From the NCBI RefSeq assembly GCF_013314975.1, contig NZ_JABTYH010000007.1:1-64000 (forward strand): a stretch of DNA of 64,000 bases, in the 5' to 3' direction. Numbering within the stretch: the first letter of the stretch is position 1; each line of letters starts with the position of its first letter. Position numbers and translations under genes: made by a program. The notes beneath the pieces are model-generated. The model saw only the letters and a list, made by a program, of their open reading frames with translations. It was not told the origin of the DNA and ran no database searches. Shown here piece by piece: positions 29,330-44,757 of this stretch. This stretch comes from Pseudarthrobacter oxydans (GTDB lineage Bacteria > Actinomycetota > Actinomycetes > Actinomycetales > Micrococcaceae).

Positions 29330-30028
29330 GTGCCTGCCGGCCTGACGGACGCAGGGGGTCGCGTGGTTGCATCAGGAATGGACGGTTCCGCCGGGTTGCT
29401 CCTGGTCGTCTCAGCCACCCTCTTAGGTCTGGCCTTATCTCCTCTTACCGAAAGCGCTATTGCACGGCGGCTTCCGCGGCTGGCCTGTCGTAATACCGCA
29501 CCCATAAGGATTACGACGGCGGTACTTACCGGCATTCTGTGCGGCGCCTTTACTTGGCGGCTAGGAATGGATCTTTCTCTCCCCGCATTTATTTTTCTGG
29601 CGGTCATCGGCGTTCAGCTGTCGCGGATCGATATCGCGCTGCATCTGCTGCCCAACCCGCTCGTACTCATACTTCTCGCCGGCGGCTTCTTTCTCTTGCT
29701 AATGCCAGGGCTGCTTAACCTGCAGGCCGATAACCTGCTTCGCTCGGTACTAGGAGCCCTGATTTTGTTTGCCGGTTACCTTATCCTGGGCCTTATCTCC
29801 CCCGGCGCCATCGGAATGGGCGACGTAAAGCTCGCTGCGCCAGTGGGCCTGTACCTCGGGTACCTAGGCTGGGGCCAACTGCTGTACGGCGGTCTCCTCT
29901 GCTTCATCTTTAACGGCCTTGTTACAGTCGCAGTCCTGAGCAAAAAAGGCCGGAAAGAAGCCACGGAAGTAGCTCACGGGCCCTCCATGCTCGGCGCCTT
30001 GGCGGGCACCTTGCTCTTCCTCCGGTAA
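29330..30028 (+). CDS. Prepilin peptidase (A24, TadV/CpaA type)
   Basis: Membrane aspartyl protease that removes the leader from Flp pilins and TadE/F-type pseudopilins. The 232-residue protein has six or more hydrophobic segments. The two catalytic aspartates are visible: Asp in SRIDIALHLLPN (about residue 101) and the GxGD motif in GAIGMGDVKLAAP (about residue 165). There is no N-terminal methylase domain. GTG at 29330 is supported by GGAGG 9 bases upstream. It is the only prepilin peptidase in the window and precedes two complete Tad loci, so it probably serves both. Confidence 0.85.
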   Translation: MPAGLTDAGGRVVASGMDGSAGLLLVVSATLLGLALSPLTESAIARRLPRLACRNTAPIRITTAVLTGILCGAFTWRLGMDLSLPAFIFLAVIGVQLSRIDIALHLLPNPLVLILLAGGFFLLLMPGLLNLQADNLLRSVLGALILFAGYLILGLISPGAIGMGDVKLAAPVGLYLGYLGWGQLLYGGLLCFIFNGLVTVAVLSKKGRKEATEVAHGPSMLGALAGTLLFLR

Positions 30029-30095
30029 CCGGGCTCTGGGAACCTTTAGGCTTTGCCCCTCCTCACAAACACCGCCCTCCAAGTAGCGGACCCAT

Positions 30096-30172
30096 GTACT
30101 CGCATACCTGCCTGAGTACTGTCGCCCACTTTCGAGTACGTACTTTTGGCGCACCTTGAAAAAGTCGAGTAC
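30096..30172 (+). promoter_or_regulatory. Cluster of four GAGTAC motifs upstream of flp1
   Basis: GTACTC at 30096-30101 and GAGTAC at 30114-30119, 30134-30139 and 30167-30172; three of the four read CGAGTAC on their strand. A plausible promoter (TTGAAA 30156-30161, 18-base spacer, CATTGT 30180-30185) has the last copy inside its spacer, as expected for an operator. The rest of the gap at 30029-30308 holds nothing else recognisable. Confidence 0.45.
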
Positions 30173-30308
30173 CACTACGCATTGTTGCCCTCACCCCCCG
30201 AATGACAATCTCTTATTAGCGAAGTCCAGCCGCTAGGGAATTATGGGGGCAGCTGGAAATTCGTTGAAATCAAACAAATCCAATTTCACCGAATTTAAGG
30301 AAATTACA

Positions 30309-30509
30309 ATGACTTCTCTCATGGTCTCAATGACTGCTTTCATCGCCGGTATCAAGGAGCGCTTCGAATCCGAGAAGGGCGCAACTGCGACGGAGTACTC
30401 ACTGCTGGTAGGACTTATTGCCCTTGTCCTTGTCGCCGGCGTCGGATTCTTCGGCGGAGAGCTGGACAAGTGGTTCAGCACCCTGGGCACCACGGTCGGC
30501 ACCTGGTAG
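30309..30509 (+). CDS. flp1: Flp/Fap-type pilin 1
   Basis: Type IVb pilin subunit, 66 residues. The cleavage region ESEKG|ATATEYSLLVG has Glu at +5 and Tyr at +6 of the mature form, the hallmark of Flp pilins, followed by the hydrophobic helix LIALVLVAGVGFFGG. The frame opens at 30243, but AAGGA 8 bases before the ATG at 30309 and the short leader decide the start. A strong hairpin follows at 30521-30554. The gene heads Tad locus 1. Confidence 0.9.
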   Translation: MTSLMVSMTAFIAGIKERFESEKGATATEYSLLVGLIALVLVAGVGFFGGELDKWFSTLGTTVGTW

Positions 30510-30520
30510 TCCAAAAGTTC

Positions 30521-30554
30521 ACGGTGTGCCGCGCCATATTGCGCGGCACACCGT
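30521..30554 (+). terminator. Hairpin between flp1 and tadE1 (attenuator or mRNA-stabilising)
   Basis: Perfect 14-base stem ACGGTGTGCCGCGC (30521-30534) / GCGCGGCACACCGT (30541-30554), 6-base loop. No U-tract follows (ACTCATCTC), so partial termination or 3'-end protection of the pilin mRNA is more likely than full stop. Confidence 0.6.
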
Positions 30555-30589
30555 ACTCATCTCAGCCGAAATTAGTCCAAGGGGTTCCT

Positions 30590-30988
30590 TTGAAACGCAG
30601 GCACAGCAGTCCGCCGGATGAAGAACGAGGTGCGGTGGCCGTCGAATTCGCTCTCATTGCTCCGATCCTCCTCGCTTTGATCATCGCCATCGTTGAGTTC
30701 GCAAACGCCTACAACATTCAAGTGTCGGTGACGCAAGCGTCTCGCGAGGCAGCCAGGACTATGGCCATCACGAAGGACTCAGCGCAAGCAACGGCTGCCG
30801 GCAAAGCCGGTGCTCCTTCGATTAACACCGGCCTGCTGACGTTCGACTATTCCGCGGCAGGTTGCCCTGCCACCACGCCCGCTCCAAACGCGACTGTCAC
30901 CGTGACTTACACCGGTACCTCGCTCACGGGGTTTTTCGGGTCCTCATTGACCCTGACAGGTAAAGGAGCCATGCAATGCGGTGGCTAA
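30590..30988 (+). CDS. tadE: TadE-like pseudopilin 1
   Basis: Minor pilin-like protein of the Tad system. EERG|AVAVEFALIAPILLALIIAIVEF matches the TadE/F processing site and transmembrane helix, with Glu at +5. The soluble part ends in a Cys pair region (GCPAT and MQCGG). The frame opens at 30470 within flp1, but a TTG at 30590 with AAGGGG 5 bases upstream gives a 132-residue protein with a normal short leader. The stop overlaps the next gene by 13 bases. Confidence 0.8.
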   Translation: MKRRHSSPPDEERGAVAVEFALIAPILLALIIAIVEFANAYNIQVSVTQASREAARTMAITKDSAQATAAGKAGAPSINTGLLTFDYSAAGCPATTPAPNATVTVTYTGTSLTGFFGSSLTLTGKGAMQCGG

Positions 30989-31944
30989 CTTCAAAATATA
31001 AGTTTCCTGAGCCAGATGAACAGGGCGCCGCGGGAGTGACAGTTGCTGTCATGATGGTGGTGCTCATTGGAGTTGGTGCCGTAGCCGTCGATGTTGGCCA
31101 GATATATGCGGAACGGGCGCAACTTCAGAATGGCGCCGACGCCGGGGCGCTGGCTGTCGCAGAGAGTTGTGACCCCGGGCCTTGCACAACTTCGCTGGCT
31201 GGCCCTTTGGCCAACGCCAACTCCAACGACGGTCTAAGTGATGCCACAGTCGACCTTAGTGTCGCCGGGCAGGTGACTGTAACTACGTCAACCAAAAGCG
31301 GGTCCTCTAGCTTCCTGACAAAGATGTTTGCCAGTGCCCTCAACGCGGGGCCCGTGACGGTCGGAGCGACCTCAACGGCTGCTTGGGGTTCGCCAGGATC
31401 CGGTCCCGCAGCTCTGCCGCTGACCTTCGCGCCGTGTCAGTTCGACGTAGACGGAGCCATCCACACAATCCTCACGCACGGCAGCGAAAGCTGTGTGAGC
31501 GACAGTCCTTCGGGAGCGCCAATCCCGGGCGGCTTCGAATGGCTCATCCCGGATTCCGGCGAATGCGAGGCAACCGTGCATCCGGATGACACGACGACAG
31601 CCGGTGTTGTAGATCCGTACGCAATATCAAAAACGGGCCTAAGTTTCCCATCGGAATGCAAGGACCTCATACCTACGTACCTGAACCAGGTAATCCTGTT
31701 TCCTGTCTTCTCATCCGTCGTAGGAACGGGCGCTAACGCGAAGTATTACATCAAAGGCTATGCAGCCTTCCTGCTCTTGGGCTACAGCTTTCCTGGATCA
31801 ACTGGGGGCGATCAAACGGGCCTCGGGGGAACGAACCGCGGAGTTCGGGGAAAGTTTGTCAGCTGGGTCGCCGATCCGGCGTTATACGGCGGTGGCGGTT
31901 ATTCCGGCGGAGGCGCCGAACTGCCACCACACCTCGTGAAGTAG
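30976..31944 (+). CDS. tadG: TadG-like pilus assembly protein 1 (Tad domain, PF13400-like)
   Basis: Membrane-anchored, mostly extracellular protein of 322 residues. The N-terminal helix GVTVAVMMVVLIGVGAVAVDVG followed by QIYAERAQLQNGADAGALA is the diagnostic Tad/TadG motif; unlike the pseudopilins it lacks Glu +5. The extracellular part carries several Cys (ESCDPGPC, APCQFD, SGECEA, SECKD) that could form disulfides and ends in a Gly-rich tail. A paralog lies at 38395. Confidence 0.8.
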   Translation: MRWLTSKYKFPEPDEQGAAGVTVAVMMVVLIGVGAVAVDVGQIYAERAQLQNGADAGALAVAESCDPGPCTTSLAGPLANANSNDGLSDATVDLSVAGQVTVTTSTKSGSSSFLTKMFASALNAGPVTVGATSTAAWGSPGSGPAALPLTFAPCQFDVDGAIHTILTHGSESCVSDSPSGAPIPGGFEWLIPDSGECEATVHPDDTTTAGVVDPYAISKTGLSFPSECKDLIPTYLNQVILFPVFSSVVGTGANAKYYIKGYAAFLLLGYSFPGSTGGDQTGLGGTNRGVRGKFVSWVADPALYGGGGYSGGGAELPPHLVK

Positions 31945-31966
31945 AAATCCACAAAAGGGGAAAGTT

Positions 31967-32749
31967 ATGAAAGCACGCCTACTGGGAGGCATCGCCGCAT
32001 TGGTTGTCGCAATCATAGGCACTGTCCTTCTCTTCAACTACGTGCAAGGGGCCGATCGCCGGGCTCTTGCCAACACAGAAACGGACGACGTCCTAGTGGT
32101 AAAGCAGGAGGTGGCGGCTGGCACTCCGGCCAGCCAACTCGGCCAGTACCTCATCACGAAGACTGTTCCGCGGACAGCGGTGGCCGAAGGCGTTGTTGAC
32201 GACCTGGGATCTCTTGGCTCGAAAGTAACGGCCGTTGCCCTGCAGCCTGGAGAACAACTGCTCAACAGCCGCATGGTGGACGCAAACGCGTTCCTGGGAC
32301 CCGCCCGGGTGGAGGTTCCCGAAGGACTACAGGAAATCACAGTTCGCCTCAGCATCGACCGGGTCGTTGGCGGCAAGATACAAGCCGGCGACACAGTGGG
32401 GGTCTTCATTTCGCTCGGCGACGCTGGCGGAGCTGAAGCGGAGGGTGGCAGCGGGACTCAGCTGACTTTCCACAAAGTCCTTGTGACGGCGGTCCAGTTC
32501 AGCTCAGGCCAGGCAGCGCAGACCCAGGGGGAGGCGACGCAAGCCAGCTCGCAGGGCGCCCTCAATGCAGACAGCCAGGCTAAGCAGACTTCAAGCGACT
32601 CCTACCTGATCACATTCGCCAGGAACGCCGTTGATGCTGAAAAACTGGTGTACGCCGCGGAATTCGGGAAGATCTACCTCTCGAAAGAGCCGGCGAGCGC
32701 CACCGAGGGCACCAGCGGAGTCGTCAACCAGACAAAGGTATTCCGATGA
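31967..32749 (+). CDS. cpaB: Flp pilus assembly protein CpaB/RcpC, locus 1
   Basis: A 260-residue protein with one N-terminal membrane anchor (LLGGIAALVVAIIGTVLLFNYV) and a SAF/RcpC-like periplasmic domain (VVKQEVAAGTPASQLGQYL; QPGEQLLNSRMV). In diderms CpaB helps the outer secretin; in this monoderm it probably links the pilus to the wall. A Gln/Ala/Ser-rich insert lies near residues 178-205. Its stop overlaps the next start by 4 bases. Confidence 0.85.
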   Translation: MKARLLGGIAALVVAIIGTVLLFNYVQGADRRALANTETDDVLVVKQEVAAGTPASQLGQYLITKTVPRTAVAEGVVDDLGSLGSKVTAVALQPGEQLLNSRMVDANAFLGPARVEVPEGLQEITVRLSIDRVVGGKIQAGDTVGVFISLGDAGGAEAEGGSGTQLTFHKVLVTAVQFSSGQAAQTQGEATQASSQGALNADSQAKQTSSDSYLITFARNAVDAEKLVYAAEFGKIYLSKEPASATEGTSGVVNQTKVFR

Positions 32750-33945
32750 GCCGCTTCATTTTGATCTCACCCTCCGTAGATTATGAACGCAAAGTTCGGG
32801 CTTCCGTAGCCCCCTTGAGTGGATCGCTTCAGTACTTCCAGGCGGCTTACCTGCCCGAATCCCCGGAGGACATCCTTCGGCAGCAAGCCGGCGAACCGCC
32901 CGAGGTCCTGATCCTTGGCCCCGGGCTGCCCCAGGATGAGGCACTGAAGTTCGCAGCCATCTTGGACCTGCAGTACCCCGAAATTAGCATTGTTTTGGCT
33001 GCGGACGACGACGGCGAGCTGGCACTGAACGCCATGCGTTCCGGCATCCGGGATCTCCTTCCGCCCTCGGCCGACATGGACCAGGTGAGGGCGTTGGTGG
33101 AACGCGCAAGCCTTGCTGCGGCTGGTCGTCGACGCGGACTGAGTCCCAACACGGCGGAACGTCCCACTACCGAGGGAGGCCGGGTTATCGCCGTCATGTC
33201 GCCCAAGGGTGGCGTTGGCAAAACAACGATCGCCAGCAACCTTGCCATCGGTCTGGGACAAATCGCTCCCATGAGCGTCGTTGTGGTGGATCTGGATCTC
33301 CAGTTCGGTGACATCGGCAGTGGTCTCATGTTGGAGCCCGACTTCACTATTACGGACGCAGTTGTTGGCGCGGCGAGCCAAGATGCCATGGTCCTCAAGA
33401 CTTACCTGACGCTGCACGCCGGCAACATCTACGTCCTCTGTGCCCCCCGCAACCCCATTGATATGGACAGGATTAGCGGCGAACACATCAGTCACCTCTT
33501 GCGCCAGCTCCGCGCCGAATTCCAGTACGTAGTGGTGGATACGGCTCCAGGGCTTGGTGAACACGTCCTCGCAACCCTGGAACAAGCAACAGATGCTGTT
33601 TGGGTTTGCGGCATGGACATTCCGAGCATTCGGGGTTTGCGAACGGGGTTCCAGATTCTTTCGGAGCTTGACCTGCTCCCAGATCACCGACACGTGATCC
33701 TCAACATGGCCGATCGCAAGACCGGCCTCACGGTTCAGGACGTAGAAGCGACAATCGGTGCTCCGGTAGACATAGTCCTTCCCCGTTCCAGGAATGTCCC
33801 CTTCTCCACTAACAAAGGCGTTCCCCTACTGCAGGACGGGAGTAGGGACCCGGCAGCGAAAGGCCTCAGGCAGCTGGTGGAGCGCTTCAAACCGAACTGG
33901 GAGGCTCCACGCAAGAAGCTGCACAGAAGGGCGGTAGTCCAGTGA
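32746..33945 (+). CDS. cpaE: CpaE/TadZ-like ATPase, locus 1
   Basis: MinD/ParA-type ATPase that positions the Tad machine. Residues 1-120 resemble a response-regulator receiver domain without the phospho-acceptor Asp (VLILGPGLP), as known for CpaE/TadZ. From residue 146 the ATPase domain follows: deviant Walker A SPKGGVGKTTIASN (about 152-165), VVVDLDLQFGDI, and YVVVDTAPGLGEH. ATGA overlaps join it to cpaB and cpaF. The protein has 399 residues. Confidence 0.88.
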   Translation: MSRFILISPSVDYERKVRASVAPLSGSLQYFQAAYLPESPEDILRQQAGEPPEVLILGPGLPQDEALKFAAILDLQYPEISIVLAADDDGELALNAMRSGIRDLLPPSADMDQVRALVERASLAAAGRRRGLSPNTAERPTTEGGRVIAVMSPKGGVGKTTIASNLAIGLGQIAPMSVVVVDLDLQFGDIGSGLMLEPDFTITDAVVGAASQDAMVLKTYLTLHAGNIYVLCAPRNPIDMDRISGEHISHLLRQLRAEFQYVVVDTAPGLGEHVLATLEQATDAVWVCGMDIPSIRGLRTGFQILSELDLLPDHRHVILNMADRKTGLTVQDVEATIGAPVDIVLPRSRNVPFSTNKGVPLLQDGSRDPAAKGLRQLVERFKPNWEAPRKKLHRRAVVQ

Positions 33946-35399
33946 CTCTCTCACATCGATTCGCGAAGTTGCGCGGCGACGAAATCGGCGGCCTTGAGGT
34001 GCCGGCCTCTTCCCCATCACAGCCACAGCCAGCTACACTCGGCGCCATCCAGCAGGCGCAGGCGACGCAGCAGGCTCAGGCCCCCGCTGTGATGGAGGTG
34101 ACCACCGGAAACGCCAGCGAAGCCTTGTCGGGTTTGAAAGAGCGTGCCAGCCAAGCACTGTACGAACGGCTGGGATCGCGAATCACCGACTCCTCCTTGG
34201 ACGAAACAGAGCTTCACCAGTTCGTCAAAGACGAACTGAAAGCCGTCGTCGATGAAGAGCAGGTCCCCCTGTCACAGGGCGAGCGCCAGCGGCTAACCCG
34301 GGAAATCATCGACGATGTCTTGGGCCATGGGCCGATGCAGCGTTATCTGGACGACCCTACAGTCACGGAAATCATGGTCAATCGGGCTGACCAAATCTAT
34401 GTGGAGCGTAACGGCCACTTGTTCCTCACGGATACCAAGTTCAGTTCCGAAGAGGCGCTGCGGCGAGTGATCGAACGCATCGTGACGCGCATCGGCCGGC
34501 GGATCGACGAGTCGTCGCCGCTCGTGGACGCCCGCCTGCCAGATGGTTCACGCGTGAACGCCATCATTCCGCCCCTGGCCGTCAATGGCGCGTCCCTCAC
34601 CATCCGAAAATTTGGCAGGGAGGCGCTGACTGTTCAAAAGCTGATCAGCTTTGGCAGCTTGTCCCCTGAGATGGCAGAGCTCTTGCAGGCATGCGTCCTC
34701 GCCAAGATGAACATCATCGTGTCAGGCGGTACGGGTACCGGAAAGACGACGATGCTGAACGTTCTCTCATCCTTCATTCCGGCCACGGACCGCATCGTCA
34801 CCATTGAGGACGCGGTTGAACTGCAACTCCAACAGGACCACGTCGTCAGGTTGGAGAGCCGGCCGGCAAACATCGAAGGCAAGGGCGAAGTTTCCATCCG
34901 TGATTTGGTGCGCAACTCTCTTCGCATGAGGCCAGACCGGATCGTTGTTGGTGAAGTCCGCGGTGGTGAGTCTTTGGACATGCTCCAGGCAATGAATACG
35001 GGCCACGATGGCTCGATCTCAACCGTCCACGCGAACTCCCCCAGGGATGCAGTGGCCCGGTTGGAGACCTTGGTCCTCATGGCGGGTATGGACCTTCCGC
35101 TTCGAGCCATCCGGGAGCAGATCGCATCAGCCGTAAACCTCATCGTGCATATTTCGCGGCTTCGTGACGGATCCCGGCGGGTAACGCACATCACGGAGGT
35201 CCAGGGAATGGAGGGAGACATCGTCACGCTTCAGGACGCCTTTGTCTTCGACTACTCGGCCGGCATAGATGCCAACGGACGTTTCCTGGGGAAGCCGATT
35301 CCCACGGGGGTGCGGCCACGCTTCACGGACCGTTTTGAGGAGCTCGGCATTAAGATCTCTCCCGCTGTATTCGGCGCTCAAGCGGTCAGGGGACGGTGA
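33942..35399 (+). CDS. cpaF: Tad secretion ATPase CpaF/TadA, locus 1
   Basis: Hexameric ATPase that powers pilin polymerisation. The 485-residue protein has a variable N-terminus, PTVTEIMVNRADQIYVERNG, Walker A SGGTGTGKTTMLN (about residues 261-273), an Asp box TIEDAVELQLQQ, Walker B DRIVVGEVRGGESLDML and the His box GHDGSISTVHANSPRDA. All motor motifs are intact. A closely related copy lies at 41404-42924. Confidence 0.93.
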   Translation: MTLSHRFAKLRGDEIGGLEVPASSPSQPQPATLGAIQQAQATQQAQAPAVMEVTTGNASEALSGLKERASQALYERLGSRITDSSLDETELHQFVKDELKAVVDEEQVPLSQGERQRLTREIIDDVLGHGPMQRYLDDPTVTEIMVNRADQIYVERNGHLFLTDTKFSSEEALRRVIERIVTRIGRRIDESSPLVDARLPDGSRVNAIIPPLAVNGASLTIRKFGREALTVQKLISFGSLSPEMAELLQACVLAKMNIIVSGGTGTGKTTMLNVLSSFIPATDRIVTIEDAVELQLQQDHVVRLESRPANIEGKGEVSIRDLVRNSLRMRPDRIVVGEVRGGESLDMLQAMNTGHDGSISTVHANSPRDAVARLETLVLMAGMDLPLRAIREQIASAVNLIVHISRLRDGSRRVTHITEVQGMEGDIVTLQDAFVFDYSAGIDANGRFLGKPIPTGVRPRFTDRFEELGIKISPAVFGAQAVRGR

Positions 35400-36352
35400 T
35401 GGAAGCTCCCGAAGCCCCAATGCTGATGTTCTTAGTGGGCGTGCTGATGATCCTTACTGCGATGACAGTTCTGTTCGTCGTCGTCCTCAAGCCCGGAAAC
35501 GCGATCCCCCTCTCGCGGCGTCGGCCGGACGTCGTCTCCGCCAGCTCAAGGCTGACCGTCCTAACCGATTCGGCGGTGGGGGCAATTAACAAGCAGCTGA
35601 AGGGAAAAAACGACTTCCTGGTAAGCCGGGAGAAACTCGAGCGGGCAGGCCTCAAAACCCAACCCGCCGACTTCCTGCTCATGATGGGTGCAGGCACGGT
35701 CGCTGGCAGCGTCTTCGGATTCCTTTTGGGTGGGCTGTTCTTCGCGATTCTGATGATCGCAGTCGTACCTGCCGGCATGATGGCTTACCTTTCCGTATTG
35801 ACCTCGCGCCGCAAGAGCAAGTTCGACGAGCAACTCCCCGACACACTGCAAATGCTGACGGGGAGCATGCGGGCAGGGCACAGCCTCATGCGGGCAATTG
35901 ATGCTTCGGCTCGGGAGACGGATGCTCCAATGTCCGAGGAGCTTAGCCGAATCGTCAACGAAACCAGGATCGGGCGGGACCTTCGGGAGTCCATGATCGA
36001 CGTCTCCGCACGTACGGGCAGTGAGGACTTTGCATGGATCTCCCAGGCCATCGAGATACATCGGGAAGTGGGCGGTGACCTTGCTGAAGTGCTTGACCAC
36101 GTGGGTGAGACCATCCGGGATCGGAATCAGATCAGACGCCAGGTCAAAGCCCTCAGCGCAGAAGGAAAGATGTCGGCGGCGGTTCTCATGGGACTCCCGG
36201 TGGTGCTTTTCTTCGCTCTGATCCTGATCAACGCGCAGTACGCCAAGACGTTCACTAGCACGGTCCCAGGATTCCTCATGCTTGGCGCCGCAGCTGTGAT
36301 GCTTACAGCCGGCGGCTTCTGGCTCAGCCGCTTGATCAAACCGAAGTACTAG
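35396..36352 (+). CDS. tadB: Tad platform protein TadB, locus 1
   Basis: Inner-membrane protein of the T2SSF/GspF family, 318 residues; with TadC it forms the platform that couples CpaF to the pilus. N-terminal TM (MFLVGVLMILTAMTVLFVVVL), two central TMs, then the cytoplasmic F domain FDEQLPDTLQMLTGSMRAGHSLMRAID and ALSAEGKMSA, and two C-terminal TMs. The start is GTG at 35396 or ATG at 35399, both overlapping the cpaF stop. Confidence 0.88.
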   Translation: MMEAPEAPMLMFLVGVLMILTAMTVLFVVVLKPGNAIPLSRRRPDVVSASSRLTVLTDSAVGAINKQLKGKNDFLVSREKLERAGLKTQPADFLLMMGAGTVAGSVFGFLLGGLFFAILMIAVVPAGMMAYLSVLTSRRKSKFDEQLPDTLQMLTGSMRAGHSLMRAIDASARETDAPMSEELSRIVNETRIGRDLRESMIDVSARTGSEDFAWISQAIEIHREVGGDLAEVLDHVGETIRDRNQIRRQVKALSAEGKMSAAVLMGLPVVLFFALILINAQYAKTFTSTVPGFLMLGAAAVMLTAGGFWLSRLIKPKY

Positions 36353-36362
36353 GAGGGTCGAC

Positions 36363-37235
36363 ATGTCACCCATGGCGCTTGGGGCAATTCTGGCCATAAT
36401 TCTGCCCATCACGTACCTGGTATGGTCCGTCGCGGCAACTGACAGGGTTGCCTTGCGAAACATCCAAGCCAATCTTGGTCAGCGCGCAAGGAATGCGGCG
36501 CCGCAGAACCTCGCGGCAGAGTTCGGCGCTATTGCACGCAAAGCCACGCCAGTAGGCTACGTTGCCTGGCTCGACAAGCAGCTGGCGGCCGTAGGCCGAC
36601 CAAAGGATTGGCCGCTGGAGCGGCTACTGATTGTGAAGCCAACGCTGGCGCTCGGCGCCGGCGTCCTTGGGCTCCTCAACTTCCTCGCCTCACCGGCACC
36701 CGCACGCTTTGCAGTTCTTGTCGCGGCGCTGGCGTTCGGGTACTTCGCACCGGACCTACTGGTACGCACCAATGCTGAGAAGCGGAGGGCGAAAATTCGC
36801 CAGGAGCTGCCGAATACCCTGGACCAGATGCTGATCTCGGTGCAGGCGGGCCTGGGATTCGAGGCTGCGATGGCCCGCACCGCCCAAAATGGCAGCGGAC
36901 CGCTGGCGGATGAGATGACCCGCACTTTGCAGGATATGCAGGTGGGACGTTCCCGCAAGGAGGCCTACCTGGCAATGTCTGATCGCGTCGACGTACCCGA
37001 CCTTCGTTCCTTCATTCGGGCCATTGTCCAAGCCGATGCGTACGGCATTGCCATCGCAAAGGTATTGAAGGTTCAGGCCCACGAGATGAGGCTTAAGCGC
37101 CGGCAACGGGCCGAGGAACACGCGATGAAGATTCCAGTGAAGATCCTCTTTCCTCTTATCTTCTTTATTTTTCCGACCCTCTTCATCATCCTGCTGGGGC
37201 CGGCCGTCATGAACATCGTCGCCGCCTTTTCCTAG
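36363..37235 (+). CDS. tadC: Tad platform protein TadC, locus 1
   Basis: Second GspF-type platform protein, 290 residues: N-terminal TM, a central TM pair around residues 90-125, the F domain ELPNTLDQMLISVQAGLGFEAAM with QDMQVGRSRKEAYLAM, and C-terminal hydrophobic segment LFPLIFFIFPTLFIILLGP. AGGAGG lies 7 bases before the ATG. Followed after 8 bases by a second Flp pilin. Confidence 0.88.
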   Translation: MSPMALGAILAIILPITYLVWSVAATDRVALRNIQANLGQRARNAAPQNLAAEFGAIARKATPVGYVAWLDKQLAAVGRPKDWPLERLLIVKPTLALGAGVLGLLNFLASPAPARFAVLVAALAFGYFAPDLLVRTNAEKRRAKIRQELPNTLDQMLISVQAGLGFEAAMARTAQNGSGPLADEMTRTLQDMQVGRSRKEAYLAMSDRVDVPDLRSFIRAIVQADAYGIAIAKVLKVQAHEMRLKRRQRAEEHAMKIPVKILFPLIFFIFPTLFIILLGPAVMNIVAAFS

Positions 37236-37243
37236 GAGGAATT

Positions 37244-37456
37244 ATGAATCGTCTGACTGTGATCGTGCTCCGGGTGGCCGCGTGGTTCACCCGCCTGAGC
37301 GACCAGGAACGCGGCGCCACCGCGACGGAGTACAGCATCCTCACTGGGTTCATAGCAATGGTGATTGTCGCCGGTGTGGGTCTGTTCGGGACCTCACTCA
37401 ACTTGTTTTTCGGCTTCCTCACCACTGGCGTGAAGACTGCTCTCGGTATCCCATAG
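37244..37456 (+). CDS. flp2: Flp/Fap-type pilin 2
   Basis: Short type IVb pilin, 70 residues: QERG|ATATEYSILTGFIAMVIVAGVG with Glu +5 and Tyr +6. The leader is longer than that of flp1 (about 26 residues). TAGGAGGAATT precedes the ATG. Placement at the end of locus 1, just before a strong terminator, differs from flp1 and flp3, which head their loci; it may be a minor or alternative subunit. Confidence 0.85.
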   Translation: MNRLTVIVLRVAAWFTRLSDQERGATATEYSILTGFIAMVIVAGVGLFGTSLNLFFGFLTTGVKTALGIP

Positions 37457-37493: not shown

Positions 37494-37530
37494 GGACCCC
37501 CTCGGCACCCAGAACCGAGGGGGTCCGCTT
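37494..37530 (+). terminator. Terminator of Tad locus 1
   Basis: Perfect 12-base stem GGACCCCCTCGG (37494-37505) / CCGAGGGGGTCC (37515-37526), 9-base loop, followed by GCTTGTGTGTT. It separates the two Tad loci. The remainder of the gap to 37718 should hold the locus 2 promoter, but no clear boxes stand out. Confidence 0.8.
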
Positions 37531-37718: not shown

Positions 37719-37937
37719 ATGCTTTCTCTCATCGCTACCCTTCAGACCCTCGGTTTCAACCTCAAGAACCGACTCAACGAAGAAAAGGGTGCCACCGCCG
37801 TTGAATACGGCATCATGGTCGGCCTCATCGCAGTCGTCATCATCGTTGCTGTCAGCACCCTGGGCGGCACCCTCGACGGCTTCTTCGACTCCGTCAACAA
37901 TGAGCTCGCCCCTGCCGCCCCGGTTGTAGGCGGCTAA
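37719..37937 (+). CDS. flp3: Flp/Fap-type pilin 3
   Basis: Type IVb pilin of 72 residues heading Tad locus 2. EEKG|ATAVEYGIMVGLIAVVIIVAV has Glu +5 and Tyr +6; the mature tail ends in an Ala/Pro-rich segment. The frame opens at 37533, but CAGGAG 5 bases before the ATG at 37719 and the short leader set the start. Its closest parallel in layout is flp1: pilin, hairpin, tadE. Confidence 0.9.
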   Translation: MLSLIATLQTLGFNLKNRLNEEKGATAVEYGIMVGLIAVVIIVAVSTLGGTLDGFFDSVNNELAPAAPVVGG

Positions 37938-37949
37938 ATCTTTCGACCC

Positions 37950-37976: not shown

Positions 37977-38032
37977 CACCGCCTCAAAGAAGCAGGCACA
38001 GAACACGAGTCATCCTAGAGGAGGTGCAGCAG

Positions 38033-38407
38033 GTGTCACACGATTCGGAACGCGGTGCAGCCGCCGTCGAATTCGCGATCCTGCTGCCCCTCCTCTTGAT
38101 GCTTGTCCTGGGCACCATCGAATTCGGCCGCGCCTACAACGCCCAGATCACCCTCACCAACGCAGCCCGCGACGGCGTCCGGGTCATGGCCATTGGCAAC
38201 GATCCCGCTGGAGCCAAGACCGCCGCCCAGAACGCGGCAGCATCCGTCAGCAGCACCATCCCCACCTCGGACATCACGCTCAGCACCAGCGCGTGCAGCA
38301 CGGGCGCCCAGGTGACCCTCACCATCAAGTACAACCTGGCCACCATCACCGGCATCGCCGGCCCGTTCCCGATGACCGGCAAAGGGGTCATGCTGTGCGG
38401 CGGCTGA
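38033..38407 (+). CDS. tadE: TadE-like pseudopilin 2
   Basis: A 124-residue minor pilin-like protein. SERG|AAAVEFAILLPLLLMLVLGTIEFGRAYN is the standard TadE site and helix, with Glu +5. Two in-frame GTGs are possible; GAGGAGG at 38018-38024 is 8 bases before the GTG at 38033, which is chosen over 38024. The C-terminal MLCGG mirrors the MQCGG of copy 1. Its end overlaps the next gene. Confidence 0.82.
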   Translation: MSHDSERGAAAVEFAILLPLLLMLVLGTIEFGRAYNAQITLTNAARDGVRVMAIGNDPAGAKTAAQNAAASVSSTIPTSDITLSTSACSTGAQVTLTIKYNLATITGIAGPFPMTGKGVMLCGG

Positions 38408-39432
38408 CCCTGGACAAAGCGAACGAAAATGGCGCCGTCAGCGTCATCGTCGCCATCCTCATGGTGACCCTCCTCGGCTTCGTGGCCATCGCCGTGGACG
38501 TCGGGGTGATCTACTCGGAGCGCGCACAGCTGCAGAATGGGGCCGACGCCTCCGCTATTGCCCTGGCGCAGAAGTGCGCGCGGAATGCAGCGGATCCGGC
38601 GTGTTCCACAACCTCCACTCTCGCCACCAGCCTGGCCAACCAGAACGCGCTGGACGGCATGAGTAAGGTGCACACCATCGAGCTCGATACAACCGCCCGG
38701 AAAGTCAGCGTCACCACCTCCGCCAAGGAAGCAGGCGGCCCGGACAACTCCGTCTCCCTCTTCTTCGCGGACGTCCTCGGCGTTCCCACCAAGGAAGTGG
38801 GTGCCCGGGGATCGGCCATCTGGGGAAGCCCCCGGGCCGGCCGCACCGCTTTCCCCCTGGCATTCTCCATCTGCCAGGTCAAGGACAACATCGGCGGCGG
38901 TCTCCAGCGCCTCCAGGAACACGGAAAGAACGCCAACGCCGACTGCAACTACGGCCCGTCCGGCGCGGCAGTGCAGGGCGGTTTCGGCTGGCTGGTCCAG
39001 GACGCCGGAAAGTGCGGCGGCACCATCGACCTCGCCGTCAGCGAGGGCGGCAGCGACCCCGGCAACAACGCGCCGGGCAACTGCGCTACCGAACTCAACC
39101 GCTGGGCCAGTGACATCACCGCCGGCCGGGACGTCATCGTGCTCCTCCCGGTGTTCAACAAGGTCACCGGGGCCGGCGCCGGCGCCATCTACGGGCTTGT
39201 CTCCTTCGCCGCTTTCAAAGTCACCGGCTGGAAATTCAGCGGAGATTCGTCCCTTCCTTACACCTTCCAGAACAGGGCGTCGACGACGACGGGCGTCACC
39301 ACCGCCACGGAATGCCGCGGCGAGTGCCGCGGCATCATCGGCAGCTTCGTCAAGTACGTCTCCCTCGCCGACGGCTACACCCTCGGGCCCGTGGACGAAT
39401 ACGGCGCCACCATCGCCCGCCCCACCCTCTAG
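38395..39432 (+). CDS. tadG: TadG-like pilus assembly protein 2 (Tad domain)
   Basis: A 345-residue membrane-anchored extracellular protein: N-terminal helix GAVSVIVAILMVTLLGFVAIAVDVG, then VIYSERAQLQNGADASAIALAQ. The extracellular part is Cys-containing (KCARNAADPAC, CQVKDN, DCNYG, KCGGT, NCATE, ECRGECRG). A GTG at 38395 with AAAGGGG 7 bases upstream overlaps the tadE2 stop by 13 bases, exactly the overlap seen in locus 1; longer readings upstream are not pilin-like. Confidence 0.82.
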   Translation: MRRLTLDKANENGAVSVIVAILMVTLLGFVAIAVDVGVIYSERAQLQNGADASAIALAQKCARNAADPACSTTSTLATSLANQNALDGMSKVHTIELDTTARKVSVTTSAKEAGGPDNSVSLFFADVLGVPTKEVGARGSAIWGSPRAGRTAFPLAFSICQVKDNIGGGLQRLQEHGKNANADCNYGPSGAAVQGGFGWLVQDAGKCGGTIDLAVSEGGSDPGNNAPGNCATELNRWASDITAGRDVIVLLPVFNKVTGAGAGAIYGLVSFAAFKVTGWKFSGDSSLPYTFQNRASTTTGVTTATECRGECRGIIGSFVKYVSLADGYTLGPVDEYGATIARPTL

Positions 39433-39461
39433 CCACCACCCCAAATATTCAGGAGCTGAAA

Positions 39462-40211
39462 GTGAAGTCTCGCCTGCTCGCCGGAACGGCCGCGGTTGCC
39501 CTGGCGCTCGTGGGAGCCCTCCTCATCATCTTCTACGCGAACGGCGCCGACCAGCGCGCCCTCGCCTCCACCGAACCCGTGGACGTCCTGGTGGTCAAGA
39601 CCGCCATTCCGGCAGGCACCCCGGTCAACGACATGGCCGCTTCCCTGGTCATCGAGAAGGTCCCGGCAGCAGGAAAGTCCGACAGCGCCCTCAGCACCCT
39701 GGAGGGAAAAGCCAACACCGTCAGCGCAGTGGACCTTGTCCCCGGCGAACAGCTCCTGGCCGAGCGCCTCGTGGCCCCCGAAGTGGTGGAGGACAAGAGC
39801 ACTACGACCGTCCCGGCAGGTTTTCAGGAGGTCTCGTTCCAGCTGGAGCCGCAAAGGCTAGCGGGAGGACGCATCACCGTCGGCGACCACGTCGGCATTT
39901 TCTTGTCCTTTGAAGAGGGTGCTTACAAACCAAAGCTTGAGGATGCAACAACCCAGCTCACACTACGCAAGGTCCTCGTAACTGCGGTTCAGAGGGCAGC
40001 GGTCGTAGAAGAACCTGCCGAGGGCGAGGTCAACCCCCAAGACACAACACTCCCTGCAGGCTCGCTCATGTTGACCGTCGCAGTCAACGATGTCGACGCC
40101 GGCAAGATCGTTTTCGCCTCCGAGTTCGGCAGGCTGTGGCTCACCAAGGAACCCCTGGACGCCCAGGACAACGGACCCCGGATCGAACGCAAGGAAGTGG
40201 TCTACAAGTGA
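39462..40211 (+). CDS. cpaB: Flp pilus assembly protein CpaB/RcpC, locus 2
   Basis: A 249-residue protein: N-terminal anchor LLAGTAAVALALVGALLIIFYA, then ADQRALASTEPVDVLVVK and PGEQLLAERLV of the SAF-type domain. The GTG at 39462 follows AGGAG by 6 bases; readings from upstream would add an Arg/His-rich tail not seen in the family. It lacks most of the Gln-rich insert of copy 1. Base use changes partway: the region near 39900-40030 is less GC-biased than the rest. Confidence 0.85.
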   Translation: MKSRLLAGTAAVALALVGALLIIFYANGADQRALASTEPVDVLVVKTAIPAGTPVNDMAASLVIEKVPAAGKSDSALSTLEGKANTVSAVDLVPGEQLLAERLVAPEVVEDKSTTTVPAGFQEVSFQLEPQRLAGGRITVGDHVGIFLSFEEGAYKPKLEDATTQLTLRKVLVTAVQRAAVVEEPAEGEVNPQDTTLPAGSLMLTVAVNDVDAGKIVFASEFGRLWLTKEPLDAQDNGPRIERKEVVYK

Positions 40212-41404
40212 GCCGGTTCGTCCTCCTCTCCCCCAGCGGCGAGTTCGACCAGAAGCTGCGCGCCGCCGTCGCCCACGGCCTCCGCGGCTCCGTCCAGACC
40301 ATCGCCTCGGACATCCTCCCCGCGGGCCCCGCCGAACTGTTCGCGCTCCTCAACCAGGAGCAGCCCGAAGTCCTGATCATCGGCCCGGATGTTCCCTACG
40401 AGGAGGCCCTGCGGTTCGCCAAGGTCTTCGACGTCCAGCTCCCCGGCCTCAGCCTGGTGCTGGTCAGCGACATCGACCCGTCGTTCCTGGTCCACGCCAT
40501 GCGCGCCGGCATCAGGGACATCCTCAGCCCGCAGGCGGACGCCGCCGAGATCCGTGTGCTGCTGGAGCGCGCCTGCCAGTCTTTCGCCACCCGGCACCGG
40601 AGCCCCGAAACACAGGCGGCGGACAACGGCGGCAAGGGCCTGGTCATCGGCGTCTTCTCGCCCAAGGGCGGCGTCGGCAAAACCACACTCGCCACGAACA
40701 TCGCCATCGGCCTGGGCCAGATCGCCCCCATGAGCGTGGTCATTGTGGACCTGGACCTGCAGTTCGGCGACGTCGCCTCCGGCCTGTACCTCAACCCCGA
40801 GCACACGGTCACGGATGCCGTCACCCCCGCCGCTGCCCAGGACTCCCTGGTCCTCAAGGCCTTCCTCACGGTGCACCCCGCCGGGATCTACGCCCTGTGC
40901 GCGCCGCCGAACCCGGTGGACGCGGACCACATCACGCCCGACCAGATCACCCACCTGCTGGAACAGCTTGCCCAGGAATTCCAGTACGTCGTCCTGGACA
41001 CGGCCCCCGGCATGCCCGAAATCGGCCTCGCCGCCATGGAACAGTGCACCGACGTCGTGTGGGTCAGCGCCATGGACATCCCCAGCCTCCGCGGCCTGCG
41101 TTCGGGCCTCGAGGTGCTCCGCCAGCTGGAAATCATGCCCGAATCCCGGCACGTGGTCCTGAACATGGCCGACGCCAAGGCCGGCCTCAACGTCCGGGAT
41201 GTCGAGTCCACCATCGGCGCCCCGGTGGACGTCAGCGTTCCCCGGTCCCGCGCCGTGGCCCTGTCCACCAACCGTGGCATCCCCGTCCTCCAGGAATCCA
41301 AAAAGGACCCCGCCGTCAAAAGCCTCCGCCAGCTGGTGGAGCGCTTCAACCCGGCGTGGCGTACCCAGACCCAGCGGAAGCTGCACCGAAGGGTGGTCAT
41401 CTGA
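40208..41404 (+). CDS. cpaE: CpaE/TadZ-like ATPase, locus 2
   Basis: A 398-residue paralog of the locus 1 protein. It has a receiver-like N-terminus lacking the Asp (VLIIGPDVPYEEAL), then SPKGGVGKTTLATNIAIGLGQ and VIVDLDLQFGDVASGLYL, and YVVLDTAPGMPEI. GTG start overlaps the cpaB stop by 4 bases. The C-terminal RKLHRRVVI matches the KKLHRRAVVQ end of copy 1. Confidence 0.88.
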   Translation: MSRFVLLSPSGEFDQKLRAAVAHGLRGSVQTIASDILPAGPAELFALLNQEQPEVLIIGPDVPYEEALRFAKVFDVQLPGLSLVLVSDIDPSFLVHAMRAGIRDILSPQADAAEIRVLLERACQSFATRHRSPETQAADNGGKGLVIGVFSPKGGVGKTTLATNIAIGLGQIAPMSVVIVDLDLQFGDVASGLYLNPEHTVTDAVTPAAAQDSLVLKAFLTVHPAGIYALCAPPNPVDADHITPDQITHLLEQLAQEFQYVVLDTAPGMPEIGLAAMEQCTDVVWVSAMDIPSLRGLRSGLEVLRQLEIMPESRHVVLNMADAKAGLNVRDVESTIGAPVDVSVPRSRAVALSTNRGIPVLQESKKDPAVKSLRQLVERFNPAWRTQTQRKLHRRVVI

Positions 41405-42924
41405 TGAAACTCTCCGAACGGATCAGCGCGGTCCAGGACCGCAACCAGTCCGCCGCCAGCAGCGTTGCCGTGCTCGAACCACCGCGTCCCGCGGCGGCCC
41501 CGGCCAGAACCCGGGAGGGCGAGCCGCGGCACCTGCCCGCCGCTCCCGCCGTCGTGGTTCCAACGTCCGACGCCGGTGCCTCCCCTGTGCCTTCAGCTCC
41601 CTCAGTGCCCAAGGCACAGTCCGTGGATGTCTTCGCCGCCATGAAGCACCGTGCGGCTACCGCGCTTTTTGAGCGGATGGGCGCGCGCTTCAACGACGCA
41701 ACGGCCACAGAGCACGAGTTGCGGAGCACGGCCAAGGAGGAACTGAGCCGGATCATCGACGCCGAACAGGTTCCGCTGACGCCCGAGGAACGCACCCGGC
41801 TTGTCCAGGATATTTCTGACGACGTCCTGGGCTTCGGGCCCCTCCAGCGCCTGCTGGACGATCCCGCCGTCACCGAAATCATGGTCAACCGGATGGACCA
41901 GATCTACGTTGAACGCAAGGGCAAGCTGACCCTGACGGAGTCCCGCTTCAGCTCGGAGGACCACCTGCGCAAGGTCATCGAGCGGATCGTCTCCAAGGTG
42001 GGCCGCCGCATCGACGAGTCCTCCCCGCTGGTGGACGCCCGCCTCGAGGACGGCTCACGCGTCAACGCGGTCATCCCTCCGCTGGCCGTGGGCGGCTCCT
42101 CACTGACCATCCGTAAATTCAGCAAGGTCCCCCTCACTGTCCGCAACCTGATCGACTTCGGCACCCTCACCCCCGAGATGGCCGAGCTGCTCAACGCCTG
42201 CGTCAAGGCCAAGCTCAACATCATCGTCTCCGGCGGTACAGGCACCGGCAAGACCACCCTCCTGAACGTCCTGTCCTCCTTCCTGCCCGCGGACGAACGG
42301 ATCGTGACCATCGAGGACGCCGTGGAACTGCAGATCCAGCAGCAGCACGTGGTCCGGCTCGAAAGCCGCCCGCCGAACACCGAGGGCAAGGGCGAAGTGA
42401 CCATCCGCGAACTGCTGCGGAACTCGCTGCGCATGCGCCCGGACCGGATTGTGGTGGGCGAGGTCCGCGGCGGGGAATCGCTGGACATGCTCCAGGCCAT
42501 GAACACCGGCCACGACGGCTCCCTCTCAACGGTCCACTCCAACTCGCCCCGGGACGCGGTGGCCAGGCTCGAAACCCTGGTGCTGATGGCCGGCATGGAC
42601 CTGCCGCTGCGCGCCATCCGCGAACAGATCGCCTCCGCCGTCAACCTCATCGTCCAGATCTCCCGGCTCCGTGACGGCTCCCGCCGCATCACCCACGTCA
42701 CCGAAGTCCAGGGCATGGAAGGGGACATCGTCACCCTCCAGGACGCCTTCGTCTTCGACTACTCCGCCGGAGTGGACGCCCACGGCCGCTTCCTCGGCAA
42801 GCCCGTGGCCACCGGCATCCGGCCACGCTTCATCGACCGGTTCGAGGACCTGGGCATCCACGTCTCCCCCGGCGTCTTCGCCGGACCCCAGGCGGCGGCG
42901 GTCCAGAACCACGGCGGACGGTGA
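41404..42924 (+). CDS. cpaF: Tad secretion ATPase CpaF/TadA, locus 2
   Basis: A 506-residue traffic ATPase with intact motor motifs: SGGTGTGKTTLLN (about residues 276-288), TIEDAVELQIQQ, DRIVVGEVRGGESLDML and GHDGSLSTVHSNSPRDA. The first about 80 residues are Pro/Ala-rich and unlike copy 1; the rest is very similar to copy 1. The ATG overlaps the cpaE stop (TGATG). Confidence 0.93.
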   Translation: MKLSERISAVQDRNQSAASSVAVLEPPRPAAAPARTREGEPRHLPAAPAVVVPTSDAGASPVPSAPSVPKAQSVDVFAAMKHRAATALFERMGARFNDATATEHELRSTAKEELSRIIDAEQVPLTPEERTRLVQDISDDVLGFGPLQRLLDDPAVTEIMVNRMDQIYVERKGKLTLTESRFSSEDHLRKVIERIVSKVGRRIDESSPLVDARLEDGSRVNAVIPPLAVGGSSLTIRKFSKVPLTVRNLIDFGTLTPEMAELLNACVKAKLNIIVSGGTGTGKTTLLNVLSSFLPADERIVTIEDAVELQIQQQHVVRLESRPPNTEGKGEVTIRELLRNSLRMRPDRIVVGEVRGGESLDMLQAMNTGHDGSLSTVHSNSPRDAVARLETLVLMAGMDLPLRAIREQIASAVNLIVQISRLRDGSRRITHVTEVQGMEGDIVTLQDAFVFDYSAGVDAHGRFLGKPVATGIRPRFIDRFEDLGIHVSPGVFAGPQAAAVQNHGGR

Positions 42925-43865
42925 CAGACGCCATGATTCTCGCTGCCGGAACCGCCATCCTCCTCACAGCCGTGGCCCTGTTCGGCGCCGCGGTGCTGCT
43001 GCCAAGCGCGCCGGACGTGCCCCTGGACCGCCGTCGTCCCTTCGATCCCGAACCTCCCTCTTCCCTGTCGCGTTTGGCGCTCTCCGCCGTCCGGTCCTTC
43101 GAGCGGCTCCTCGCCGGCCGGAACATCCCCCTCTTTGCCCGGCCCGAGCTTGAGAACGCCGGGCTCCGGCTCAGCCAGGCCGAGTTCTTCCTGCTGGTGG
43201 GAATCGGCGCGGGCGTAGGGATGCTGGTAGGCACCGTCACCGTGGGACCCCTGGTGGGGCTCCTCCTGGCACTGCTGGCACCGATGGCCGGCAAACTCGT
43301 CCTGGGATTCCTTGCCGGTAAAAGGCGGGCCACCTTCGACGGCCAGCTGGGCGACACCCTCCAGCTGCTGTCCGGCGGCCTCCGCGCCGGGCACAGCATC
43401 CTGCGCGCCATCGATGCTGCGGCGGCAGAATCACAGAAGCCAACGTCGGAGGAAATGCGGCGCGTGATCACGGAGACCAGCCTGGGCAGGGACCTGCTGG
43501 CCGCCCTCAACGACACCGCGGACCGGATGAAGAACGAGGATTTCGTCTGGATCTCCCAGGCCATCCAAATCAACCGCGAGGTGGGCGGCAACCTGGCCGA
43601 CGTCCTGGACCAGGTCAACGAAACCATCCGGGAGCGCGCCGAGATCAAGGGCCACATCAAAGCCCTGGCGGCCGAAGGCAAGTTCTCCGCCTACATCCTC
43701 ATCGCCATGCCGTTCGGCATCGTGGCCATGCTGCTGGCGGTGAGCCCGAACTACATGAACTCCATGTTCACCCATCCCCTGGGCTGGGCCATGATCGGGG
43801 CTTCGTTTGTGCTCATGACCATCGGTGCGCTGTGGATGCGCAAGATCATCGACCTGAAGTTCTGA
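42921..43865 (+). CDS. tadB: Tad platform protein TadB, locus 2
   Basis: A 314-residue GspF-type protein: N-terminal TM, two central TMs (LLVGIGAGVGMLVGTVTVGPLVG), F domain FDGQLGDTLQLLSGGLRAGHSILRAID, ALAAEGKFSAYILIAMPFGI and a final TM. GTG start, 4-base overlap with cpaF. Confidence 0.88.
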   Translation: MTDAMILAAGTAILLTAVALFGAAVLLPSAPDVPLDRRRPFDPEPPSSLSRLALSAVRSFERLLAGRNIPLFARPELENAGLRLSQAEFFLLVGIGAGVGMLVGTVTVGPLVGLLLALLAPMAGKLVLGFLAGKRRATFDGQLGDTLQLLSGGLRAGHSILRAIDAAAAESQKPTSEEMRRVITETSLGRDLLAALNDTADRMKNEDFVWISQAIQINREVGGNLADVLDQVNETIRERAEIKGHIKALAAEGKFSAYILIAMPFGIVAMLLAVSPNYMNSMFTHPLGWAMIGASFVLMTIGALWMRKIIDLKF

Positions 43866-43872
43866 GGACGCC

Positions 43873-44757
43873 ATGAACCTGACAGTTCTTCTCTCCATCC
43901 TGCTGGTCTGCGTCCCCCTGGCCGGGCTGGCATGGTCCGTCCTGACGGTGGACAAGCAGGGCCGCCTGGCAGCCACCGAGCTCCTGGCCCGCGGCGCCGC
44001 GACGGTCACTGTCGCAGCCACCGGCAAACCCGGAATGCTTGAAGGCGTCGGCAGGCGCCTCACTCCCCCCGCGTATGTCGCCTTCCTTGACCGGCTGCTT
44101 GCCCTCGCCGGCCGGCCGGCCTCAATGCCGCTGGGCAAGGTCCTCGGCTCCAAGCTGGCGATAGGCCTGGCGGGCATCACGGTGGGCATCTACCTGACGG
44201 CCATCGGAAGCACACCGCTGATGAAGCTCGCCGGCCTCTTTGTCCTGTTCCTGGGCTACTTCATCCCGGACCTCCTGCTCTACAGCAAGGGGCAGGAACG
44301 CCAGAAGGTCATGCAGCTGGAACTGGCCAACACCCTGGACCAGATGCTGATTTCCGTGGAAGCGGGACTCGGCTTCGAAGGCGCCATGGCCCGTGCAGGG
44401 GAAAACGGCAAGGGGCCGCTGGCTGAAGAACTGGTCCGGACCCTGCAGGACATGCAGGTGGGCCGCAGCCGGCGTGAGTCCTATACCGCCCTGGCCGAAC
44501 GGACCAGCATTCCGGAGCTGCGCAGCTTTGTGCAGGCTGTGGTCCAGGCGGACACCTACGGCATTGCCATCAGCCGGGTTCTGCGGGTGCAGGCCAAGGT
44601 GATGCGGGTAAAGCGGCGCCAGCGGGCCGAGGAGAAGGCGATGAAACTCCCGGTGATGATCCTGTTTCCGCTGCTTTTCTTCATATTCCCGGTTCTCTTT
44701 ATCGCCATTCTTGGACCGGCCGTCATTAATACCGTGGTGACTTTCAGCGGACAGTAA
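43873..44757 (+). CDS. tadC: Tad platform protein TadC, locus 2
   Basis: A 294-residue second platform protein. ELANTLDQMLISVEAGLGFEGAM, QDMQVGRSRRESYTAL and LFPLLFFIFPVLFIAILGP align with the locus 1 copy. Unlike locus 1, no pilin gene follows; the next gene is an Hpt-like protein with its own promoter. Confidence 0.88.
   Translation: MNLTVLLSILLVCVPLAGLAWSVLTVDKQGRLAATELLARGAATVTVAATGKPGMLEGVGRRLTPPAYVAFLDRLLALAGRPASMPLGKVLGSKLAIGLAGITVGIYLTAIGSTPLMKLAGLFVLFLGYFIPDLLLYSKGQERQKVMQLELANTLDQMLISVEAGLGFEGAMARAGENGKGPLAEELVRTLQDMQVGRSRRESYTALAERTSIPELRSFVQAVVQADTYGIAISRVLRVQAKVMRVKRRQRAEEKAMKLPVMILFPLLFFIFPVLFIAILGPAVINTVVTFSGQ

Follow-up and report, generated by a model that had tools for sequence, protein, structure and literature searches.

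Two adjacent Tad/Flp pilus operons between rplM and truA in Arthrobacter: a probably resident machine beside one probably exchanged between species

Main finding

The 64,000-nucleotide stretch of the Pseudarthrobacter oxydans genome analysed here (the window, whose positions are used for all coordinates) carries, inside a ribosomal-protein gene cluster and bounded by rplM and truA, an island of pilus genes with two Tad/Flp loci, locus 1 (30309-37456) and locus 2 (37719-44757). On the basis of the comparisons described below, we consider it probable that the two loci encode two separate pili that share one prepilin peptidase, that locus 2 is mostly resident, and that locus 1 has been exchanged between species. 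According to this scheme, the rplM-truA interval of Arthrobacter, taken here as the genus, would be a pilus island with two places. One would hold a mostly resident Tad machine, locus 2, whose motor and platform genes are largely inherited with the species and which is probably controlled by the neighboring OmpR-type response regulator, sensor kinase and an HPt-fold protein without the phospho-accepting histidine (pseudo-HPt). In the other place, slot 1, divergent operons would have taken over from the whole Tad operon many times, most likely through homologous recombination within the conserved flanking regions. Each operon would supply the motor and platform for a pilus of its own, the island peptidase would process the pilins of both loci, and selection would act on the tip formed by TadE and TadG.

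The two loci and their lineages

Gene calls tested against Pfam bear out the central claim of the preliminary description of this DNA, namely that two complete Tad/Flp loci adjoin in the identical order flp-tadE-tadG-cpaB-cpaE-cpaF-tadB-tadC, with a Pfam match for each gene (Table 1). Both have the following parts by which the Tad/Flp (type IVc) class is recognized: a Flp pilin, TadA/CpaF, separate TadB and TadC, TadZ/CpaE, RcpC/CpaB, TadE and TadG; the CpaB proteins match TIGR03177 under its curated cut-off (48 and 60 bits versus 71). For the dedicated prepilin peptidase that also marks the class there are two candidates, an A24 enzyme in the cluster and another on contig C23. As read from the translations, the CpaF nucleotide-binding motifs are whole in both loci, in keeping with the earlier statement that the motors are intact, and a pilin processing site of the form G/XXXXEY is present in both, as GATATEY in flp1a and flp1b and GATAVEY in flp2; this is the Flp pilin processing site according to PMC4322843, which, like the other papers cited here, is drawn on in excerpt. 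The extra pilin (37244-37456) and lower GC content attributed to locus 1 are likewise real.

The phylogeny that the preliminary description had proposed was built from 60 fetched genomic regions containing 87 Tad units, 85 of which entered the CpaF tree and 83 the TadB+TadC tree. Both units of genome G053 (79% complete, with broken frames) were left out of both trees; the TadB+TadC tree is also without the G009 unit of locus 2, which the border of the fetched region truncates, and the slot-1 unit of G026, whose TadB reading is cut to 88 residues and which was placed by CpaF alone. Locus 2 forms one clade that includes units of other genera (support 1.00 for TadB+TadC and 0.77 for CpaF), and the slot-1 operons are spread over at least five lineages in several other clades. 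Slot types Ia to Ie were assigned by eye from the two trees; in G018 an operon of the locus-2 kind stands alone in the slot.

Within the window, the two CpaF proteins are 71% identical and the other six compared pairs 39–57%; the two loci are old paralogues. A recent tandem duplication in this lineage, with copies now redundant, would account for the like gene order and for the 13-base tadE/tadG overlap common to both loci, to which the preliminary description had drawn attention. The overlap is indeed present, but a start codon lies at the 13-base position in 84 of the 87 tadE hits in the fetched regions, and such a family-wide trait is uninformative on recent duplication. Given the low identity of six of the seven protein pairs, and the clustering of locus 2 with the loci of other genera and not with locus 1, recent duplication is contradicted both by the trees and by the family-wide overlap; we reject it as extremely improbable.

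Occurrence across the genus

CpaF2 was used as the query against 71 sampled genomes of the genus, with E up to 1e-120 counted as a strong match. Two strong matches lie within 15 kb of each other in 44 genomes and apart in eight (at 271–305 kb on one contig in three, on different contigs in five), a single one is found in 16, and none in three. Counted among the single-match genomes is G053, which has two broken copies in its fetched region; those with no match are G027 (68% completeness), G033, and G048, whose contig ends inside cpaF, so that a contig break is responsible. Some genomes reach five CpaF-like matches at E 1e-60, and in a family-wide draw CpaF2 found a match in 46 of 149 genomes. 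The ten single-locus genomes with fetched regions have the slot-1 kind in nine cases and the locus-2 kind in one (G018), and none of the fetched regions has more than two operons in the island. A third Tad operon of G055 (L082) stands at a different site, with a CpaF 72% identical to CpaF2, and was left out of the slot counts.

Seven genomes with weak or absent CpaF matches were inspected for empty or broken sites. In four of them (G033, G092, G107 and G281) the truA-rplM gap is about 220–255 bases long, with nothing of the island inside. Relics were seen in two: G137 (L260) has a fragment of the peptidase that passes into the final part of tadC2, followed by the pseudo-HPt, regulator and kinase genes and truA, and G109 (L259) has fragments of the peptidase and tadC2 together with a kinase, with no truA within the 15 kb fetched. 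Adjacent dual Tad loci are thus ordinary in the genus, widespread but not fixed, which goes part of the way towards what the preliminary description had named as refuting its reading. No report of adjacent Tad loci or of slot exchange in Arthrobacter was found in the open-licence literature searched.

Replacement of slot 1

The species markers were two genes only, encoding a helicase and GlgX, and one of the two lies some 15 kb away from the island (these names, like glmM, prfB and ftsE below, were read off translations and are not database results). Their combined DNA gave a tree of 31 of the 37 fetched genus genomes (G031, G034, G039, G047, G053 and G058 were left out), which are not a random sample, having been picked from the CpaF listing to span dual, separate and single cases. 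On this tree slot type changes 16 times, against a minimum of 5 and a mean of 15.7 for shuffled labels, 143 of 200 shuffles being as low; the single-marker trees gave 15 changes for the helicase (81 of 200 shuffles as low) and 16 for GlgX (137 of 200). Slot type differs in 8 of 11 sister pairs, and overall the slot-1 types are distributed on the marker tree like shuffled labels.

The same pattern is seen in a comparison, by DNA identity, with the sister genome G021, the nearest sampled relative of the window. In the flank, rplM is 99% identical. Locus 2 is also close (tadE2 93%, tadG2 91%, cpaE2 to tadC2 91–96%), with lower values for cpaB2 (84%) and flp2 (76%), as are the pseudo-HPt, regulator and kinase genes (91–92%). 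In slot 1, tadE1 to tadC1 are only 55–69% identical, with identity climbing again near 37.6 kb; the peptidase (77%) and flp1a (72%) are intermediate. Spearman correlations between protein distance and marker distance, computed over 30 genomes for the slot-1 genes and 27 for tadE2 and tadG2, lie between -0.01 and 0.16 for the seven slot-1 genes and between 0.43 and 0.55 for cpaB2 to tadC2. The peptidase has a rho of 0.39, the pseudo-HPt, regulator and kinase reach 0.53–0.64, and truA, rplM and rpsI 0.43–0.67. In both loci, tadE and tadG are the genes that follow the species least.

Slot-1 diversity could alternatively reflect differential loss, without transfer, from an ancestor with many Tad operons, a scenario to which the genomes with up to five CpaF-like matches lend some weight. 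It requires, however, that a single site retained at least five operons, with different losses in the 8 of 11 discordant sister pairs, and no fetched region has more than two island operons, so we judge it quite improbable.

Peptidases and further Tad loci

The claim of a single prepilin peptidase holds for the cluster, where only the gene at 29330-30028 is found, but not for the genome: the wider search that had been proposed uncovered a second PF01478 member, of 182 residues, on contig C23, bringing the total to two. Of 43 aligned copies of the island A24 peptidase, 42 have one catalytic Asp, with a gap in the remaining copy, and all 43 have the other. Among the 71 genus genomes, 65 have two PF01478 members, three have three and three have one, and open frames of about 185–196 codons of the second type are present in many of them. 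The C23-type peptidase is the sole peptidase of G033, whose rplM-truA site is empty, and is therefore not specific to locus 2; a second peptidase does exist elsewhere, as the preliminary description had allowed, but it does not have the look of one dedicated to that locus. In all 8 genomes with a separately placed locus 2, one peptidase remains next to locus 1, and no listed peptidase is close to locus 2. An NCBIfam search put no name on either peptidase or on the pseudo-HPt. In line with two peptidases here, the excerpted genome paper of A. agilis L77 lists two genes, one of 207 and one of 168 residues, as 'Flp pilus assembly protein, protease CpaA' (PMC5000428).

Four PF00437 members above the cut-off are present in the genome, two in the window and one each on contigs C89 and C40. 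The C40 locus (L012) has TadA, TadB, TadC, TadE and two TadG-like genes, one of these below the cut-off, and recalls tad-1 of Micrococcus luteus as excerpted from PMC4322843. Of L012 and the C89 locus (L011), one lies near a DEAD-box-like helicase gene and one near prfB- and ftsE-like genes, neighbors named from translations.

The regulatory genes beside locus 2

The two-component system noted next door is a kinase/regulator pair that adjoins locus 2. Among 28 locus-2 units of the genus, the pseudo-HPt and the regulator accompany 27 and the kinase 26; the misses are the G009 unit, cut by the fetched border, and G055, which has no kinase match. The AlphaFold model of the pseudo-HPt (predicted local distance difference test score 84) has a four-helix fold with HptB as its top PDB match (template-modeling score by target 0.84), although the Foldseek E is only 1.9e-3. 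No histidine occupies the expected position in any of 39 aligned sequences, the window's included, and no column is mostly histidine; that position, set by the HPt motif, carries Ile or Leu in all 37 aligned sequences. All 38 aligned response regulators have the Asp, and 34 of 35 kinases have the His, with a gap in the remaining one.

One pilus or two

Micrococcus luteus belongs to the same family of bacteria as the organism of the window. Like it, as far as the excerpts of PMC4322843 go, M. luteus has two Tad clusters, tad-1 and tad-2, and a TadV-type peptidase without a methyltransferase domain, but its clusters are about 1.2 Mb apart, one pilus requires both of them, and its peptidase is not linked to them, whereas here the two loci are adjacent, the peptidase is beside them, and two other Tad-type loci are found elsewhere. 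By this precedent, the products of both loci could be jointly needed for one pilus, as a hybrid machine; the adjacency of the loci in 44 of 71 genomes fits such an arrangement, as do CpaF proteins that are similar (71%) and apparently mixed between types. Against it stand the 16 genomes with one strong CpaF (G053 with its two broken copies included), the ten fetched single-locus genomes with nine of the slot-1 kind and one of the locus-2 kind, and the exchange of locus 1 relative to G021 without a matching change of locus 2; moreover, the C40 and C89 loci may, by gene content only, be closer counterparts of the M. luteus pair. The hybrid is in our estimate unlikely. Two separate pili are favored because single-locus genomes exist, locus 2 is unlinked in eight genomes, and locus 2 remains in place where locus 1 has been replaced. 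Of the three possibilities first raised, two pili, a hybrid or a switch between them, the first is thus the one that the sequences support best, and switching (discussed with the hairpin below) is unsupported.

Several observations weigh against two separate pili with a resident locus 2 and an exchanged locus 1. The support for it consists of sequence data, and M. luteus does require two tad loci for one pilus (PMC4322843, in excerpt). Five of the eight genomes with separate loci have them on different contigs, where a contig break is possible. The helicase and GlgX markers agree only moderately with each other (rho 0.58), and slot-1 cpaB and cpaF are weakly correlated with them (0.15 and 0.16; p 0.016 and 0.042), with cpaE at p 0.052. 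The converse is seen in locus 2, where tadE2 and tadG2 do not significantly track the markers (rho 0.12 and 0.14; p 0.10 and 0.12); saturation alone is no explanation, because cpaB2, at a median distance of 0.36, similar to the 0.32 and 0.37 of tadE2 and tadG2, still follows them. In G064, seven locus-2 genes have 53–81% protein identity, next to 93% for CpaF2 and 85–93% for the regulators; locus 2 is not purely vertical. The slot-1 CpaF of G006 and G017 groups beside the locus-2 clade and their TadB and TadC do not; these operons look chimeric, so that mixing of motors can occur. The pilins of either locus could be processed by the C23 peptidase. Finally, the pseudo-HPt and regulator stand beside the slot-1 operon in 3 of 9 fetched genomes without locus 2, two of these with the kinase as well, and G137 keeps all three genes though only fragments of island Tad genes remain; because the regulators also occur in this way, their control may not be exclusive to locus 2.

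The hairpin between the loci

The junction of the two loci contains a 33-base hairpin (37494-37526). Allowing two mismatches, 31 of the 71 genus genomes have it, once in each except for two tandem copies in G061, and is a single copy in this genome. Of 24 genomes aligned in register, 21 have identical copies; column identity averages 0.99 within the hairpin, 0.77 and 0.61 over the ten bases flanking it on each side, and 0.26–0.39 farther out. The element occurs beside slot types Ia, Ib, Ic and Id, and also in G047 and G058, both of which are without locus 2. It is identical in 16 of 21 dual-locus genomes compared, against 13 of 21 for the best 33-base word of a tad gene, and among the 33-base words of the island and the rplM side only those in and around rplM and rpsI are as widely shared. 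The tad-gene word in question, at the 3' end of tadB2 (window 43833), stands above any other in the tad genes. In regions L054, L060-L063 and L083 the strongest inter-locus hairpin is another, unrelated one; L054, L060, L061 and L083 also carry the 33-base hairpin with up to two mismatches.

Since a run of T often follows the hairpin, a terminator is the simplest reading, one that leaves the near-fixed sequence of stem and loop unexplained. Rfam gave nothing credible, its three matches in 21-49 kb (E up to 1) all scoring far under their gathering thresholds; with one loop base left free, an exact scan found the hairpin in no viral contig, and its stretch had no plasmid match, a phage collection being outside the search. 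A palindromic element between two loci might suggest phase switching between two pili inside the cell, by DNA inversion or cassette shuffling. The 28-49 kb interval, however, has only four weak, imperfect inverted pairs (73–82% complementary), the hairpin is a single copy, no recombinase was matched by Pfam among the called genes of the island, and the exchange observed is between species. An invertible locus, which calls for good flanking inverted repeats and a recombinase, was accordingly rejected, and we consider switching very improbable. More speculatively, the rplM-truA interval could be an interspecies pilus-exchange site at which whole Tad operons move in and out of slot 1 across Arthrobacter alongside a resident machine and peptidase, with the nearly invariant palindrome at the right border of the slot, preserved in sequence despite unconserved DNA beyond about ten bases from it, as part of an exchange or insulation device; this proposal is tentative, and we doubt it more than we credit it.

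Gene map

Table 1. Features of the pilus island and its edges in the window
Feature	Position	Strand	Match or remark
rpsI, next to rplM	28080-28586		PF00380
rplM (ribosomal protein L13), left edge of island	28625..29125	-	PF00572
A24 prepilin peptidase (TadV-like)	29330..30028	+	PF01478
flp1a, locus 1 pilin	30309..30509	+	PF04964; start picked from sequence
tadE1, minor pilin	30590..30988	+	PF07811
tadG1	30976..31944	+	PF13400
cpaB1/rcpC	31967..32749	+	PF16976
cpaE1/tadZ	32746..33945	+	PF13614; weak receiver-like N-terminal match below cut-off
cpaF1/tadA, motor ATPase	33942..35399	+	PF00437
tadB1	35396..36352	+	PF00482
tadC1	36363..37235	+	PF00482
flp1b, second pilin of locus 1, at locus end	37244..37456	+	PF04964
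33-base hairpin (12-base stems, 9-base loop), terminator-like junction between loci	37494..37526	+	fold z -3.6
flp2, locus 2 pilin	37719..37937	+	PF04964; start picked from sequence
tadE2	38033..38407	+	PF07811
tadG2	38395..39432	+	PF13400; start codon GTG
cpaB2	39462..40211	+	PF16976
cpaE2	40208..41404	+	PF13614
cpaF2, motor ATPase	41461..42924	+	PF00437
tadB2	42921..43865	+	PF00482
tadC2	43873..44757	+	PF00482
Pseudo-HPt, locus-2-linked	44852..45316	+	weak Hpt match below cut-off
OmpR-type response regulator	45323..46177	-	PF00072 + PF00486
Sensor histidine kinase	46281..48032	+	HisKA + HATPase_c
truA, right edge of island	48029..48922	-	PF01416

Outside the island, the interval between rpsI and glmM (22768-28017) holds a low-GC glycosyltransferase gene of the GtrA/DPMS type and two PMT_2/YkcB-like genes. 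In G009, relatives (79% and 39%) of the first two of these genes stand between the two tad loci (L054, about 7266-9200), hinting at a link of these genes to pili.

Relation to known systems and significance

Capsule loci, such as pneumococcal cps, are exchanged between conserved flanking genes. The island resembles cps in that a cassette for a surface structure is replaced between conserved flanks, and differs in that the cassette is a pilus machine in a ribosomal-protein gene cluster and the replacement is across species. Genomes with several tad loci have been described, with three in Vibrio vulnificus (PMC6748444) and two, on the chromosome and pSymA, in Sinorhizobium meliloti (PMC10934763), and several type IV pilus operons are found in many Gram-positive species (PMC3244431). 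The first two cases share with ours the presence of several Tad systems per cell; their excerpted texts make no mention of side-by-side slots or of interspecies replacement. In the Myxococcus Kil pilus, minor-pilin tips are interchangeable, and its authors propose, in the excerpted text, that TadE/F/G-like minor pilins form the functional tip of Tad machines generally (PMC12075869). The likeness lies in this proposed tip, as in each locus of the island tadE and tadG are the genes least tied to the species; the difference is that Kil has several tips on one pilus, while the variation in the island lies between species, at two operons.

The finding is more ordinary in its setting, the arrangement being common in the genus and the genome having a further peptidase and two more Tad-type loci. 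With several Tad loci per genome already known, a mostly resident and an exchanged machine at one site are its more interesting side. The pseudo-HPt is a candidate regulator that would be unable to work by the usual phosphotransfer. Across species the island offers a natural comparison of a mostly resident machine with an exchanged one, complemented by sites that have a single locus, unlinked loci, relics or no island genes, and it allows tests of how separate two Tad systems in a cell are, of whether one peptidase serves both, and of whether specificity comes from the TadE/TadG tip, the pilin or the platform.

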